Source of the DNA: Chlorobiota bacterium
Lineage (GTDB): Bacteria > Bacteroidota > Ignavibacteria > OLB7
Reading direction: 5' to 3'
Length of the DNA stretch: 33,857 nucleotides
Assembly: GCA_021296135.1 (NCBI GenBank)
Contig: JAGWAZ010000016.1
Location: 701 to 34,557 of the forward strand
Positions 27,125 to 33,857 of this stretch are shown piece after piece. Every line of letters begins with the position of its first letter. The first letter of the stretch is position 1. Made by a program: the position numbers and the translations under genes. Below the pieces are notes generated by a model, which saw only the letters and a list, made by a program, of their open reading frames with translations, was not told the DNA's origin and did not search any database.

Positions 27125-27214
27125 AAAAGAAAAAGCCTCCTGATTATGGGCAAGAGGCTTAGAACCCAAATGTTTTCACAACGGAATAATCCTTATTGTG
27201 AATAGCTTCATCTT
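27125..27214 (-). ncRNA. tracrRNA-1
   Basis: Minus-strand RNA upstream of cas9. Its 5' part AAGCTATTCACAA (plus positions 27196-27208) is an anti-repeat that matches the CRISPR repeat at 12 of 13 positions. It is followed by a GGATTATTCC nexus-like hairpin, TTGTGAAAACATT, and a terminator hairpin AGCCTC...GAGGCT followed by TTTTTCTTTT. The layout and the shared core with tracrRNA-2 match type II-C tracrRNAs. The 5' end is estimated from the promoter box at 27221-27228. Confidence 0.85.
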
Positions 27215-27220
27215 GTGAGG

Positions 27221-27228
27221 CAAATATA
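27221..27228 (-). promoter_or_regulatory. Bacteroidota -7 box for tracrRNA-1
   Basis: The minus strand reads TATATTTG, a perfect TAnnTTTG box, about 13 bases before the anti-repeat. A TTTTG that could serve as the -33 element lies 23 bases further upstream, slightly more than the usual spacing. Confidence 0.65.
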
Positions 27229-27265
27229 AAGAAAGAACTATAAAGAAAAAACAAAATCAAAAAAC

Positions 27266-27358
27266 GTGAAGAAAATTTTAGGACCGGACATCGGGACGAA
27301 CTCTACCGGCCGGGCATCGGTCGACGAGACAGAGGCTGAGTAGCCGGATGAGAGATCA
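27266..27358 (+). pseudogene. Dead 5' stub of a second cas9
   Basis: From GTG at 27266 the frame reads VKKILGPDIGTNSTGRASVD then ETEAE and a TAG stop at 27341, resuming PDERS before identity fades. The living Cas9 starts MKRILGLDLGTTSIGWALVD, then EADPEKPSERS, so the stub aligns residue for residue across the RuvC-I motif and past the stop. The RuvC-I Asp8 position is kept but neighbouring residues are altered. Many differences are T to C or A to G, making the stub more GC-rich than cas9. It cannot encode more than 25 residues. Confidence 0.82.
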
Positions 27359-27372: not shown

Positions 27373-27418
27373 CAAGTCAAAATATCGGACGAAGGTGGTT
27401 TTGAAGCCGAAGCTTTGG

Positions 27419-27445
27419 CTGTGAATAGTTCCAACTTGTGAAATA
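27419..27445 (-). repeat. Partial third tracrRNA 5' region
   Basis: The minus strand here reads TTTCACAAGTTGGAACTATT then CACAG, matching the tracrRNA-1 5' region (CTCACAAGATGAAGCTATTCACA) with several changes. The nexus and terminator are missing, and the corresponding promoter box is degraded. Together with the cas9 stub it shows that the tracr-5'/cas9-5' junction is duplicated in tandem. Confidence 0.65.
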
Positions 27446-27468
27446 AATACAAACAAAAAAGATTTAGA

Positions 27469-30400
27469 ATGAAAAGGATTTTAGGATTGGATTTAGGGAC
27501 AACTTCTATTGGTTGGGCATTGGTCGACGAAGCCGACCCCGAAAAACCAAGTGAAAGATCATCTATAATCAAGACAGGCGTACGGATCATCCCTTTAACG
27601 GCAGACGAAGAAGATGACTTTCAAAAAGGGAAATCAACTTCTATCAATGCAGATAGAAGAATAAAACGGGGAATGAGAAGAAACCGCCAACGCTACCAGT
27701 TGAGAAGGGGTACGCTCATCGAACTATTAAAAGAACACGGAATTATCTCGGATGAAACCGTCTTAGCGGAAAGTGGAAAAGATACTACCCATTCGCTTTT
27801 GGGATTGCGCACTAAAGCCGCTTCAGAAAGGATCGATCTTGAAGACTTTGCCCGTGTATTGCTGGCGATTAACAAAAAACGCGGTTACAAAAGCAACCGA
27901 AAAGCCAAAGACGAAGAAGACGGACAAGCTATTGACGGAATGGAAGTTGCGGTACAATTGTTTGAGCAAAACCGAACGCCCGGGCAACTGGTTTTGGAAA
28001 GATTAAAAGACGGTAAAAAGCTCATTCCTGACTTTTACCGTTCAGACCTTCAGTCGGAATTCGATAAGATATGGAATGCTCAAAGAACATTTTACCCGAC
28101 TATTCTGACCGACAAGCTGAAAGAAGAACTCGAAGGGAAAAATATAAAACAAACCTGGGCTATCTGCAAAGAACCCTTTGGAATTCAAGGAATAAAACGA
28201 ACCGGTAAGAAGGAAGAACAAAAACTTGAAAATTACCGCTGGCGAAATGACGGATTAGAACAACAGCTTGATCCGGAACATCTGGCTATTGTACTTCAGG
28301 AGATTAACGGACAGATCAGTAGTTCCAGCGGTTATCTCGGAGCGATCAGTGACCGGAGTAAAGAACTTTATTTCAACAAACAGACAGTTGGGCAATATCT
28401 CTATGGCCGATTAGAGAAGGATCCGCATATCCGATTGAAAAACCAGGTCTTTTATCGGCAGGATTATTTGGACGAGTTTGAAAAAATATGGAAAACACAG
28501 GCGCAATATCATAAAGAACTCACTCCTGAATTGAAAGCGGAAATAAGAGATACGATCATTTTCTATCAGCGCAGGCTAAAATCTCAAAAGGGATTGATCG
28601 GCATTTGCGAATTGGAGGGGAAAGAAGTGGAAATTGTAGTTGATGGCAAGAAGAAAAAAAAGATCATCGGCCCGAAAGTGTGCCCGAAGTCTTCGCCGCT
28701 TTTTCAGGAATTCAAGATTTGGCAAAAACTGAACGACCTGGAATTCAGAAACACTGAAACCAAAGAAAAATATGCAATATCTTTCTTTGATGAAGATCTG
28801 GAATTGCGAAACCTTCTGTTTGAAGAACTGAATGTAAAAGGCAATATATCCGAAGCAACGATCCTGAAAGAGGCAGGACTAAATAAAAAAGAAGGATGGG
28901 AGATCAATTTCAAAAAGGGGATCGACGGTAATAAAACCAATGAGTCCTTATACAAAGCCTACGCAAAAATCCTGGAACTGTCCGGCCATGAATTGAATTT
29001 CAAAATGCCTGCTCAGCAAATTAAAGAAGCTGTAAGAAAGGTCCTTACCATGCTAGGCATAAATACGGAAATTCTTGATTTCAATGCGGAATTGGACGGC
29101 AAGGCTTTTGAACAACAACCCGCATACCAGTTGTGGCATCTGCTCTATTCCTACGAAGGCGACGATTCAAAAACCGGTAATGAAAAACTGTATGAAAAAT
29201 TAGAAAGTAAATTCGGCTTTGCAAAAGAATATGCCAAACCCCTGGCACACATCGTTTTGAAAGACGATTATGGAAGTTTAAGCACCAAGGCGATGCGAAA
29301 GATCATTCCATACCTAAAAGCAGGACATGGATACTCCGAAGCAGCAGCACAGGCAGGATACGATCATTCTCATTCCGAAACCAAAGAGGAACGGGAAAAT
29401 AAAATACTGGAAGACAAATTGGAGTTATTGCCCAAAAACAGCTTGCGGAACCCCGTTGTGGAGAAGATTCTAAACCAGATGGTCAATGTCGTTAATGCGA
29501 TCATGGACACGTACGGTAAGCCGGATGAAGTTCGGATCGAACTGGCGAGGGAGTTGAAAAAGAGCGCCGAAGAACGAAAGGAGATGACAACAGCCATAAA
29601 TAATGCCAATAAGAAACACGACGAAATACGAAAAGAAATAGACTCTCTGTATCCGTTCAATACCGGAGTGCGTATTACGCGAAACGATATTATAAAATAT
29701 AAACTGTATGAAGAACTGGAAGGCAATGGCTATCGCACCCTTTATACCGACACCTACGTTTGTCGGGAAAAGCTCTTTTCGAAAGAATTTGACGTAGAAC
29801 ACATTATCCCCAAAGCCAAACTGTTTGATGATTCATTCTCCAACAAAACGCTTTCCACCCGGGATTTCAATCTCTTTAAAGGCGATAAAACCGGAATCGA
29901 TGCGGTGGCGGAAAAATATGGCGAGGAAAGCGAGGAATATGATAATTATCTTGCCCGGATCAAGAAATTGTACGAAATAGGGCAAAAGAAACAGAATGGG
30001 CAAAAGGGGATCAGCAAGGCAAAGTACAATAAACTGCAAATGAAGGAAAGCGAGATACCGGACGGATTCATAGAGCGCGACCTTCGCAACACCCAGTATA
30101 TTGCTAAAAAATCACGGGAAATGCTGGCGTCTGTGGTAAGAACTGTTCTTCCAACTACAGGCGGAGTCACCGATAGGTTGCGAAAGGACTGGCAACTGAT
30201 CAATGTATTGCAGGAACTGAATTGGGAGAAATATAAAAAACTGGGATTAACTTATTACGAAAAAAATAAGCACGAAAATCAAATCCCCAAAATAAAAGAC
30301 TGGACAAAACGCAACGATCACCGCCACCATGTGATGGATGCCATAATCGTGGCTTTTACTAAGCGTAGTCATATTCAATACCTGAATAACTTAAATGCAA

Positions 30401-31686
30401 GGAACGATAAATCGAGGAGTATTTACGGCATCGAACAAAACGAAACCTACACCACAATTGACAAAAACGGGGATAAAAAGCGACTGATAAAACCGCCGAT
30501 TCCATTGGATGACTTTAGAGCCGAGGCCCGAAGACATTTGGAAAACACATTGGTTTCTTTCAAAGCAAAAAATAAAATAGTAACGAAAAATAAAAATAAA
30601 ACGAAGAAAAAAGGAGGCGCAAATACCAAGACAGAGTTTACACCACGCGGGCAATTGCACAAAGAAACCGTCTATGGAATGCGATATCGATACGCTACCA
30701 AAATGGAGAAAGTAGGGAGCAAGTTCGATAGAGATAAGATACAGCAGGTAGCCCGAAAGCATTATCGTGAAGCGCTCTTAAAACGGCTGGCGAAGTTTGA
30801 TAACGATCCGAAAAAGGCATTTACGGGTAAAAACGCTCCCGCAAAAAATCCGGTTTATATTGACGAGTATCAATCCGACGTAGTCCCTGAAAAAGTAAAA
30901 TCGGTATCTCCCGAAGCGGAATATACCATTCGAAAAGAGGTCTCTCCCGATTTGAAGGTGGACAAGGTTGTCGATATAGGAGCAAAAAGGGTCTTGCAGA
31001 AAAGACTGGATGAATTCGGCGGTGACGCCAAAAAAGCATTTGCTAATCTGGAAGAAAATCCGATATGGCTCAATAAGGAAAAGGGAATACCGATCAAGCG
31101 GGTGACGATTACCGGAGTAAGCAATGCCATCCCTTTACATACGAAAAAAGATCGTTTTGGAAATGAAGTTTTAGATGATTCTGGCAATCGAATTCCGGTA
31201 GATTATATAAGCACCGGCAACAATCACCACGTAGCGGTGTACAGAGATGAGAAAGGCAATTTGCAGGAAAATGTAGTCTCTTTCTACGAGGCGGTTATTC
31301 GTAAAAACCAAGGCCTTCCGGTAATTGACAAAGATCATAATGCCGATCTCGGCTGGCAGTTTTTGTTTACGATGAAGCAAAACGAGATGTTTGTTTTCCC
31401 AAATGAAGAAACGGGTTTTAATCCCAATGAGATCGATTTAACGGACGAAAATAACTATCATCTGATCAGCCCGAATTTATTTCGGGTGCAGACGTTTTCC
31501 AAAGTCATGTACGGCAACAATGCGGTAAGAGATTATGTATTCAGACATCATCTGGAAACAACAGTGGAAAAAAAGAAGGAACTTAAAACCATTGCCTTTA
31601 AAAACATCAAGAGTTTAGCACCTTTGGAAAATATAGTTAAAGTCCGCATCAACCATCTCGGTCAGATCGTAAAAGTGGGAGAATAA
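27469..31686 (+). CDS. cas9: Cas9, type II-C
   Basis: RNA-guided DNA endonuclease of 1405 residues. RuvC-I is at the N-terminus (RILGLDLGTTSIGWALVDE, Asp8). An Arg-rich bridge helix follows near residues 63-85 (RRIKRGMRRNRQRYQLRRG). RuvC-II is PDEVRIELARELKK, with E691. HNH contains FDVEHIIPKAKLF (D775, H778), with N801 in DFNLFKGDKT. RuvC-III is HRHHVMDAIIVAF (H954, D957). All catalytic residues are present, so it should cut. TPRGQLHKETVYG and later segments lie in the wedge/PAM-interacting region; two related LxKRLxxF-D-KKAF units (about 1103 and 1176) form an internal repeat. Size plus the absence of csn2 and cas4 place it in II-C. It is A-rich and opposite in strand to the host genes, suggesting transfer. 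The next gene begins 2 nt after its TAA. Confidence 0.97.
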   Translation: MKRILGLDLGTTSIGWALVDEADPEKPSERSSIIKTGVRIIPLTADEEDDFQKGKSTSINADRRIKRGMRRNRQRYQLRRGTLIELLKEHGIISDETVLAESGKDTTHSLLGLRTKAASERIDLEDFARVLLAINKKRGYKSNRKAKDEEDGQAIDGMEVAVQLFEQNRTPGQLVLERLKDGKKLIPDFYRSDLQSEFDKIWNAQRTFYPTILTDKLKEELEGKNIKQTWAICKEPFGIQGIKRTGKKEEQKLENYRWRNDGLEQQLDPEHLAIVLQEINGQISSSSGYLGAISDRSKELYFNKQTVGQYLYGRLEKDPHIRLKNQVFYRQDYLDEFEKIWKTQAQYHKELTPELKAEIRDTIIFYQRRLKSQKGLIGICELEGKEVEIVVDGKKKKKIIGPKVCPKSSPLFQEFKIWQKLNDLEFRNTETKEKYAISFFDEDLELRNLLFEELNVKGNISEATILKEAGLNKKEGWEINFKKGIDGNKTNESLYKAYAKILELSGHELNFKMPAQQIKEAVRKVLTMLGINTEILDFNAELDGKAFEQQPAYQLWHLLYSYEGDDSKTGNEKLYEKLESKFGFAKEYAKPLAHIVLKDDYGSLSTKAMRKIIPYLKAGHGYSEAAAQAGYDHSHSETKEERENKILEDKLELLPKNSLRNPVVEKILNQMVNVVNAIMDTYGKPDEVRIELARELKKSAEERKEMTTAINNANKKHDEIRKEIDSLYPFNTGVRITRNDIIKYKLYEELEGNGYRTLYTDTYVCREKLFSKEFDVEHIIPKAKLFDDSFSNKTLSTRDFNLFKGDKTGIDAVAEKYGEESEEYDNYLARIKKLYEIGQKKQNGQKGISKAKYNKLQMKESEIPDGFIERDLRNTQYIAKKSREMLASVVRTVLPTTGGVTDRLRKDWQLINVLQELNWEKYKKLGLTYYEKNKHENQIPKIKDWTKRNDHRHHVMDAIIVAFTKRSHIQYLNNLNARNDKSRSIYGIEQNETYTTIDKNGDKKRLIKPPIPLDDFRAEARRHLENTLVSFKAKNKIVTKNKNKTKKKGGANTKTEFTPRGQLHKETVYGMRYRYATKMEKVGSKFDRDKIQQVARKHYREALLKRLAKFDNDPKKAFTGKNAPAKNPVYIDEYQSDVVPEKVKSVSPEAEYTIRKEVSPDLKVDKVVDIGAKRVLQKRLDEFGGDAKKAFANLEENPIWLNKEKGIPIKRVTITGVSNAIPLHTKKDRFGNEVLDDSGNRIPVDYISTGNNHHVAVYRDEKGNLQENVVSFYEAVIRKNQGLPVIDKDHNADLGWQFLFTMKQNEMFVFPNEETGFNPNEIDLTDENNYHLISPNLFRVQTFSKVMYGNNAVRDYVFRHHLETTVEKKKELKTIAFKNIKSLAPLENIVKVRINHLGQIVKVGE

Positions 31687-31688
31687 AC

Positions 31689-32296
31689 ATGACGCCCCTT
31701 CAACCCGACACTTTCTACCATATATACAACCGCGCAAACGGCAGGGAAAATCTGTTCGATGAAAAGCAGAACTATCATTTCTTTCTGGAGAAGTATAAAA
31801 AGTACATATCGCCCATTGCGGAAACGTGGGCGTACTGTTTGATGCCGAACCATTTTCATTTGTTGGTGGAAATACGGTCGGAAGAAGAATTAAAACGAAG
31901 GAGAAGGAGGAAAACTTTTCCAAAGTTCCAAACTTTGGAAAAGTTGGTATCCAGACAGTTCGCCAACCTATTCAGCTCTTACACCCAGGCGTTTCATAAA
32001 TTATATCAGCGAACCGGATCGCTATTCCAAAAGAACTTTAAAAGAAAAGAGATCGATTCCGGTGAATATCTGACGGAGGCCATATTATACATCCATACCA
32101 ATCCTGTACATCGCGGCGTTACCGATACAATAGACGATCGGTCCCATTTTTCCTATCCGGATGTTGTGTACGGAAAAAATGAATATATAGATTTATCCGC
32201 CTTGATCGATCGTTTCGGGACAAAAGAGCAGTTCGTCGGATGCCACAAAAATAAAACCGCCTGGGAATTGGGATCGGAAATTACTTTGGAAGAAGT

Positions 32297-32300
<4 letters not shown>
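31689..32300 (+). CDS. REP-associated tyrosine transposase (RAYT/Y1 HUH) inside the cas operon
   Basis: Protein of 203 residues of the Y1_Tnp/TnpA_REP family, single-strand DNA endonucleases that cleave next to hairpins using a tyrosine. It begins MTPLQPDTFYHIYNRANGRE, the usual RAYT start. The metal-binding HUH motif is LMPNHFHLLVE (H55, H57), and the likely nucleophile is Tyr98 in FSSYTQAFHKLYQRTGSLFQ. The tail of the core, EAILYIHTNPVHRGV, is also typical. It starts 2 nt after cas9 and overlaps the cas1 start by ATGA, so it is co-transcribed and probably coupled to cas1. Residues 75-86 are encoded by a perfect palindrome. Canonical II-C operons go cas9-cas1-cas2 directly; this gene is extra. 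It may be a passenger or an accessory in adaptation or array processing; the sequence does not decide. Confidence 0.88.
31913..31945 (+). repeat. Perfect 15-bp inverted repeat inside the RAYT gene
   Basis: AACTTTTCCAAAGTT, then CCA, then AACTTTGGAAAAGTT. The arms are exact reverse complements with a three-base loop, like a REP hairpin recognised by RAYT enzymes. It is in frame and encodes the TFPKFQTLEKL stretch. Confidence 0.9.
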
Positions 32301-33527
<1,227 letters not shown>

Positions 33528-33540
33528 AAGTGGCTTGAAA

Positions 33541-33613
33541 TAAAAATGCCCCGTAGAAAGACGAGGCAACTTAATGTTTTCACAACGGAATCATCCTTAT
33601 TGTGATTAGCTTC
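33541..33613 (-). ncRNA. tracrRNA-2
   Basis: Second tracrRNA-like gene, between cas2 and the array. The minus strand reads AAGCTAATCACAA (plus positions 33600-33612), a perfect 13-base match to the end of the CRISPR repeat. It continues with a GGATGATTCC hairpin and GTTGTGAAAACATTAAG, the same core as tracrRNA-1. It ends in a different terminator hairpin, TGCCTCGT...ACGGGGCA, followed by TTTTTATTT. No clear TAnnTTTG box stands at the right place directly upstream, so its 5' end is uncertain. Confidence 0.82.
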
Positions 33614-33674
33614 AAAGTGACATCCAAAAACGGACCTATAACCCATTGACTATAAGCACGTTTTGGCAGGGTCT

Positions 33675-33857
33675 CCTGTGCTAAGGTACAAAATGAAAGC
33701 TAATCACAACATAGAGACTGCAGCCGTTGCTGCACCTACACCTGTGCTAAGGTACAAAATGAAAGCTAATCACAACATCCCGTTGGCGGTATCGGGTCGC
33801 CTTTTGCCTGTGCTAAGGTACAAAATGAAAGCTAATCACAACCGGTAGCCCGGGAAG
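33675..33857 (-). CRISPR. CRISPR array (3 repeats visible, continues past window)
   Basis: Three identical 36-base repeats at 33675-33710, 33741-33776 and 33807-33842, separated by 30-base spacers at 33711-33740 and 33777-33806. A third spacer is cut by the window end. By its fit to both tracrRNAs the crRNA-sense repeat is on the minus strand and begins GTTGTGATTAGCTTTC and ends CCTTAGCACAGG. The array is therefore transcribed toward cas2, and the repeat at 33675 is the last one of the transcript. The leader, if any, lies beyond the window. Spacer targets cannot be judged from the sequence alone. Confidence 0.95.

Follow-up and report, generated by a model that had tools for sequence, protein, structure and literature searches.

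In the type II-C array of Campylobacter jejuni, a promoter element lies in the 3′ part of the repeat and mapped transcript starts fall at the spacer edge, according to the available portions of the report (PMC3656092). The accessible text of another paper takes repeat promoters as general for type II-C and describes the last repeat as the entry point for new spacers (PMC12080349). Repeat promoters in Bacteroidota type II-C arrays are already suggested in print: available excerpts note a TTG 33 bp before each spacer of Flavobacterium columnare, with eight array reads that run toward the leader (PMC8092290), and part of a further report repeats the TTG repeat-promoter proposal and says, in that part, that tracrRNA transcription was not revealed (PMC10309648). 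For Riemerella repeats, the available section of one study describes a general predictor that found no promoter (PMC5006608). With respect to the tracrRNA, two antirepeats are described upstream of cas9 in Prevotella intermedia (PMC5608340, in the accessible part), and the tracrRNA model CRISPRCas_38 is given as type II-C, drawn from Bacteroidetes in 578 of 599 cases and typically located up to 100 bases upstream of cas9 (PMC9067536, in excerpt). Here we describe a type II-C locus in which each visible repeat carries a putative promoter resembling that of Bacteroidota and a second tracrRNA lies between cas2 and the array.

Results

The window analyzed here is a 33,857-nt stretch that forms the end of a 34,557-base contig from a 2.86-Mb Chlorobiota genome (assembly GCA_021296135.1, contig JAGWAZ010000016.1). 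Its CRISPR-Cas features run in the order tracrRNA-1, cas9, a REP-transposase-like gene, cas1, cas2, tracrRNA-2, and the first three repeats of an array, with both tracrRNAs on the minus strand. The contig stops at window base 33857 and thereby truncates the array, whose other end is unseen. cas9 (27469–31686, plus strand, 1405 aa), the gene that resembles REP-associated tyrosine transposases (31689–32300, plus strand; 53.3 bits, under the model cut-off of 80), cas1 (32297–33199, plus strand; 299.6 bits with a type II model), and cas2 (33189–33527, plus strand) abut one another in this order. This operon is without csn2 and cas4 (within the contig), which places the locus in type II-C. A REP/Y1-transposase-like gene was found in 12 of 115 loci (among the relatives, L039, L107, L065, L112, L081, and L062), in several of them directly between cas9 and cas1, and may be accessory rather than a chance insertion. 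Window segments 27191–27327 and 27414–27530 are decayed tandem copies. tracrRNA-1 adjoins a broken cas9 start, one frame of which reads KKILGPDIGTNSTGRASVDETEAE and then a stop, and an antirepeat remnant without the tracrRNA core adjoins the intact cas9.

A chimeric locus, with cas9 and tracrRNA-1 from one source and cas1, cas2, the array, and tracrRNA-2 from another, was considered and dropped because Cas9 and Cas1 have common best matches. L038 is the first match for both proteins, and L039 is third for Cas9 and second for Cas1. Over all loci, the scores of the two proteins are negatively rank-correlated (−0.29), which we attribute to the loci having been picked by Cas9 similarity. No 20-base part of either complete spacer had an exact viral-contig match.

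The repeat is 36 nt long and reads GTTGTGATTAGCTTTCATTTTGTACCTTAGCACAGG in crRNA sense, which is the minus strand because the antirepeats of both tracrRNAs, read on that strand, complement the minus-strand repeat. The three visible copies are identical (last, leader-proximal repeat, 33675–33710; repeat 2, 33741–33776; repeat 3, 33807–33842, beyond which the array is cut by the contig end at 33857; all minus strand), and a search allowing up to 3 mismatches found the repeat nowhere else in the genome. The original prediction placed a TTG at repeat bases 2–4 and TACCTTAG at bases 23–30, 18 nt apart, with one mismatch to the box TAnnTTTG. All 3 visible repeats confirm this arrangement, and TACCTTAG fits 5/6 fixed letters of the box. 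In the last repeat, the putative −33 element is the TTG at 33707–33709 and the putative −7 element is TACCTTAG at 33681–33688 (both minus strand), with a predicted start at ~33674–33676. Only the second element is informative because GTTG opens nearly all such repeats and pairs with the antirepeat.

Within a scan of ~33558–33857, the three repeat boxes were the best three minus-strand sites, at 8.27 each, and the next best scored 0.43. Across 39 sampled stretches of the host genome, a combined promoter score as high as that of the window repeat occurred approximately once per 3.2 kb per strand, and the score of the tracrRNA-1 box recurred approximately every 37 kb per strand. A single such site is weak evidence for a putative promoter, and the evidence beyond chance is comparative: the promoter-like element is present in every visible repeat and is conserved in relatives.

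The comparison covered 81 loci (80 named loci plus the window), 61 of which yielded a repeat; the short repeats of L055, L071, and L106 were left out of the box-spacing count. Of 57 type II-C repeats from named Bacteroidota, 50 hold a TAnnTTTG-like box (≥5/6 letters) at a distance of 17–21 nt downstream of the TTG, compared with a mean of 4.1 and a maximum of 11 when the 3′ parts of the same 57 repeats were shuffled. After thinning below 80% identity, the box was present in 23 of 29 repeats (shuffles: mean 2.0, maximum 8), and control sets in which the 3′ part was reverse complemented contained one repeat with the box, both before and after thinning. The box is perfect in 17 of the 57. The six fixed box columns sum to 8.64 bits, compared with 5.72 ± 0.65 (maximum 7.71) for 300 shuffles selected in the same way; this sum was taken over 30 thinned repeats including that of the window, and 29 passed the filter. 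A spacing of 18 nt is common in the relatives' repeats, occurring in 14 of the 52 with a box of ≥5/6 letters. The spacing varies (18, 19, 20, or 21 nt) while the box letters stay, which we read as selection on the box.

Use of this promoter type by the host is apparent at its tRNA genes. A perfect TAnnTTTG was found in 9 of 27 host tRNA upstream regions (0.79 expected), and in 6 of those 9 a TTG stands exactly 20 nt before the box (TTG-N20-TAnnTTTG). The 27 regions came from 30 of 43 tRNA matches; an earlier look at host promoters had found 9 tRNAs in 22 sources. In the upstream regions of open reading frames from a genome sample, TAnnTTTG showed no clear enrichment (10 versus 8.0) and held a modest rank of 333 among 3969 words. 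There are 15 Sigma70_r2 matches in the host, the best of them in a short open frame of 294 aa, consistent with the primary sigma factor of Bacteroidota, which is short.

The proposed closeness of the repeat motif to the Bacteroidota −33/−7 type (TTG, ~19–20 nt, TAnnTTTG) stands in part. In its favor, the motif is conserved in Bacteroidota type II-C repeats, and TTG/TAnnTTTG is what the host uses; against it, the spacing is 18 nt in the window repeat and 20 nt in the host tRNA promoters, one of the six box letters is mismatched, and only 8 of 25 repeats from the host's class reach 5/6 box letters (1 of 25 reaches 6/6). A promoter with this spacing and mismatch is expected to be weak, and the repeat promoter is a credible, conserved element that would probably act weakly in this host. 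Most repeats of the class carry GTTCTTTG or TTTCTTTG, which lack the box TA, and the window repeat is more like other Bacteroidota repeats than those of its own class. Common to the class repeats (L189–L222) is [GT]TTCTTTGA, at the position that TATCTTTG occupies in other Bacteroidota, and several tracrRNA boxes in the class look like TAnnTT[TG]C. The class may have a different promoter preference, or its repeats may be read otherwise.

tracrRNA-2 (33547–33615, minus strand) has an antirepeat (~33600–33615), the conserved core (33573–33604), and an intrinsic terminator (33547–33568). tracrRNA-1 (27133–27209, minus strand) has its antirepeat at 27196–27209, its core at 27169–27200, and a terminator hairpin at 27133–27160, and its promoter box, TATATTTG (27221–27228, minus strand), fits 6/6 letters. 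At the usual position of the box, tracrRNA-2 has CGTTTTTG (4/6). Sufficient upstream sequence was available for 74 tracrRNA genes; in the stretch ahead of the antirepeat, 51 of them hold a perfect box, 22 hold 5/6 letters, and tracrRNA-2 is the sole case below 5/6. That tracrRNA-2 is without an obvious promoter of its own, as originally suggested, therefore holds for the TAnnTTTG box. Shuffled tracrRNA upstream sequences gave 5% perfect boxes, 51% with 5/6, and 42% with 4/6, so perfect boxes are telling and 5/6 boxes are not. Upstream of the relatives' tracrRNA boxes, the TTG stands at a spacing of 18 nt in 4, 19 in 7, 20 in 12, and 21 in 3 (of 73), which makes 18 nt less common there than in the repeats.

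The predicted duplex of the repeat is stronger with tracrRNA-1 (−23.6 kcal/mol) than with tracrRNA-2 (−19.7 kcal/mol), and tracrRNA-2 is thus not obviously needed. The idea that tracrRNA-1 is non-cognate was dropped; it has one more antirepeat mismatch, yet the stronger predicted duplex.

A tracrRNA core was found in 73 of 81 loci, nearly always once and adjoining cas9. Only the window has a good second copy, and this copy is positioned between cas2 and the array; no leader tracrRNA was found in any of the 56 relatives whose leader is visible (L078, without cas2, was dropped from the leader counts). Second hits in L047 and L110, with 7 and 9 mismatches, were not counted as tracrRNAs. Whole-genome searches recovered the core in 25 of 391 genomes from the class, 13 of 79 from the family of G160, and 25 of 395 from the phylum, corresponding to 46 distinct genomes, and two copies were present only in the host and in G096. 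The second copy in G096 (L145, contig 14) was rejected as another leader tracrRNA: it appears to be a recent stray duplicate, for which no array was found. Its downstream flank is the same, and unrelated-looking sequence stands in place of the promoter region upstream.

A leader of 59 nt (33616–33674, minus strand) separates the last repeat from tracrRNA-2. It contains a hairpin and has neither a TAnnTTTG box nor, under the criterion of the scan, a terminator-like site; the sole minus-strand terminator-like site in 33450–33857 is that of tracrRNA-2 itself. The expectation that a promoter in the last repeat would run straight into tracrRNA-2 is supported in orientation, since the repeat faces tracrRNA-2, and in the scan, which places no terminator-like site between them. 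It is weakened by the leader hairpin, which is followed by T5 and could still terminate, maybe weakly; array RNA would therefore reach tracrRNA-2 unless this hairpin stops it. The antirepeats set the crRNA sense as minus, which would direct array transcription toward the leader and cas2. Terminator-like sites in the relatives' leaders are found in crRNA sense in 34 of 56 but also antisense in 20 of 56 (0.9 in shuffles). These counts rest on a simpler criterion because a tail-weighted formula was judged too strict; that formula gives −21.4 for the tracrRNA-2 terminator and −24.9 for the window leader hairpin and does not separate the two.

In 14 loci (L062, L064, L065, L066, L067, L072, L076, L080, L085, L091, L093, L104, L108, and L114), the last repeat and the leader meet within a hairpin that in most cases precedes a T run. 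The repeat end takes part in the outer 4 pairs of this hairpin, which covary with it (54 of 56 pairs, compared with a shuffled mean of 44.4; 0 of 2000 shuffles as high). This junction hairpin may stop transcription out of the array.

The predicted fold of the window sequence from the newest spacer to tracrRNA-2 pairs the last repeat with the antirepeat in cis, at −66.6 kcal/mol (z −3.87), a value that none of 200 shuffles equaled.

Discussion

Sequence comparison leads us to propose, at about even odds (a probability of roughly 0.5), that repeat-borne −33/−7 promoters drive the array and tracrRNA-2 and that tracrRNA-1 is made separately. Each repeat would carry a promoter (TTG, N18, TACCTTAG) from which transcription would start at about the first spacer base, directed toward cas2. 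Transcripts begun at the last repeat and at those behind it would exit the array, cross the leader into tracrRNA-2, and end at the tracrRNA-2 terminator, and tracrRNA-1 would be made independently from the perfect box ahead of its antirepeat. tracrRNA-2 would most likely be expressed by this transcription leaving the array; we infer the start sites, promoter strength, read-through, and use of tracrRNA-2 by Cas9.

tracrRNA-2 could instead be a decaying or silent duplicate, with tracrRNA-1 serving the system by virtue of its 6/6 box and stronger predicted duplex, and the tracrRNA-2 terminator merely ending array-exiting transcription as relatives' leader terminators seem to. One tracrRNA suffices in relatives, leader terminators are common among them, and the tracrRNA-2 box position holds only the 4/6 sequence, all consistent with such a duplicate. 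We nevertheless regard it as doubtful: tracrRNA-2 retains its core (1 mismatch), a clean terminator, and an antirepeat that fits the present repeat at 13 of 14 nt, which together point to recent origin or selection. The single antirepeat difference does not fall in the segment that is mismatched in tracrRNA-1.

The source of transcription could also lie elsewhere. Transcription of the array might begin at a promoter past the end of the contig and continue through the repeats and into tracrRNA-2, with the repeat motif inherited without promoter function here; the unseen array end, the class repeats without TA, and the departure from the spacing of the host tRNA promoters would all suit a distal start. 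This is unlikely, however, given that the box letters persist while the spacing varies (18–21 nt) and their neighbors drift, and that repeat promoters are in use in other type II-C systems, as described in the available part of PMC3656092. A promoter of another type, located within the leader and belonging to tracrRNA-2 itself, would draw on the other sigma factors of the host (15 Sigma70_r2 matches in all), but we consider it highly improbable. A scan of 33450–33857 found no sigma-70-type site, the best TAnnTTTG-type site wholly within the leader scores −1.29, and TCACTTTG at 33613–33620 would start inside the antirepeat.

Transcription of tracrRNA-2 from the array would place the newest spacer, the last repeat, the leader hairpin, and tracrRNA-2 on one RNA. 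Based on the modeled fold, this RNA might act as a natural single guide, with the latest memory prioritized and tracrRNA-1 serving older spacers in trans; we think this quite improbable. Each new spacer inserts beside tracrRNA-2, and the spacer accompanied by a cis tracrRNA would therefore invariably be the newest.

If the repeats are promoters, then Bacteroidota type II-C arrays would express each crRNA singly with the phylum's own promoter type, in parallel to the arrays of Campylobacter and Neisseria. If the last repeat drives tracrRNA-2, then production of crRNA and tracrRNA would be coupled at the point where new spacers enter, a new guide-making layout and possibly a natural single-guide design. 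The conserved box makes the repeat-promoter idea directly testable in culturable relatives, among which Marinifilum and an Epilithonimonas have repeats with a perfect box. Our literature search, mainly of non-subscription papers, turned up neither a description of a conserved −7 box for Bacteroidota repeats nor one of a tracrRNA between leader and cas2; within that literature, the tracrRNA-2 arrangement is new.

The closest proposals concern F. columnare and F. psychrophilum, where a TTG 33–35 bp upstream of the spacers is likewise the proposed promoter and, in F. columnare, the repeats are also 36 nt; in the available parts of these papers, the argument rests on the TTG, without a conserved −7 box, a host promoter comparison, or a leader tracrRNA (PMC8092290, PMC10309648). 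Each repeat has a promoter element in the arrays of C. jejuni and Neisseria meningitidis, and a putative one in the window array. The C. jejuni element resembles an extended −10 (GGTAAAAT), whereas here the candidate is a Bacteroidota −33/−7 pair with predicted starts. Compared with the published description of CRISPRCas_38, tracrRNA-1 is likewise upstream of cas9, though ~260 bases away, whereas tracrRNA-2 sits between cas2 and the array. In Streptococcus pyogenes, the long tracrRNA, tracr-L, is a natural single guide. As in tracr-L, a guide, a repeat-like part, and a tracrRNA able to pair in cis would be joined on one RNA here, in a predicted fold where, in contrast to tracr-L, the guide is the newest spacer and its partner the true last repeat.
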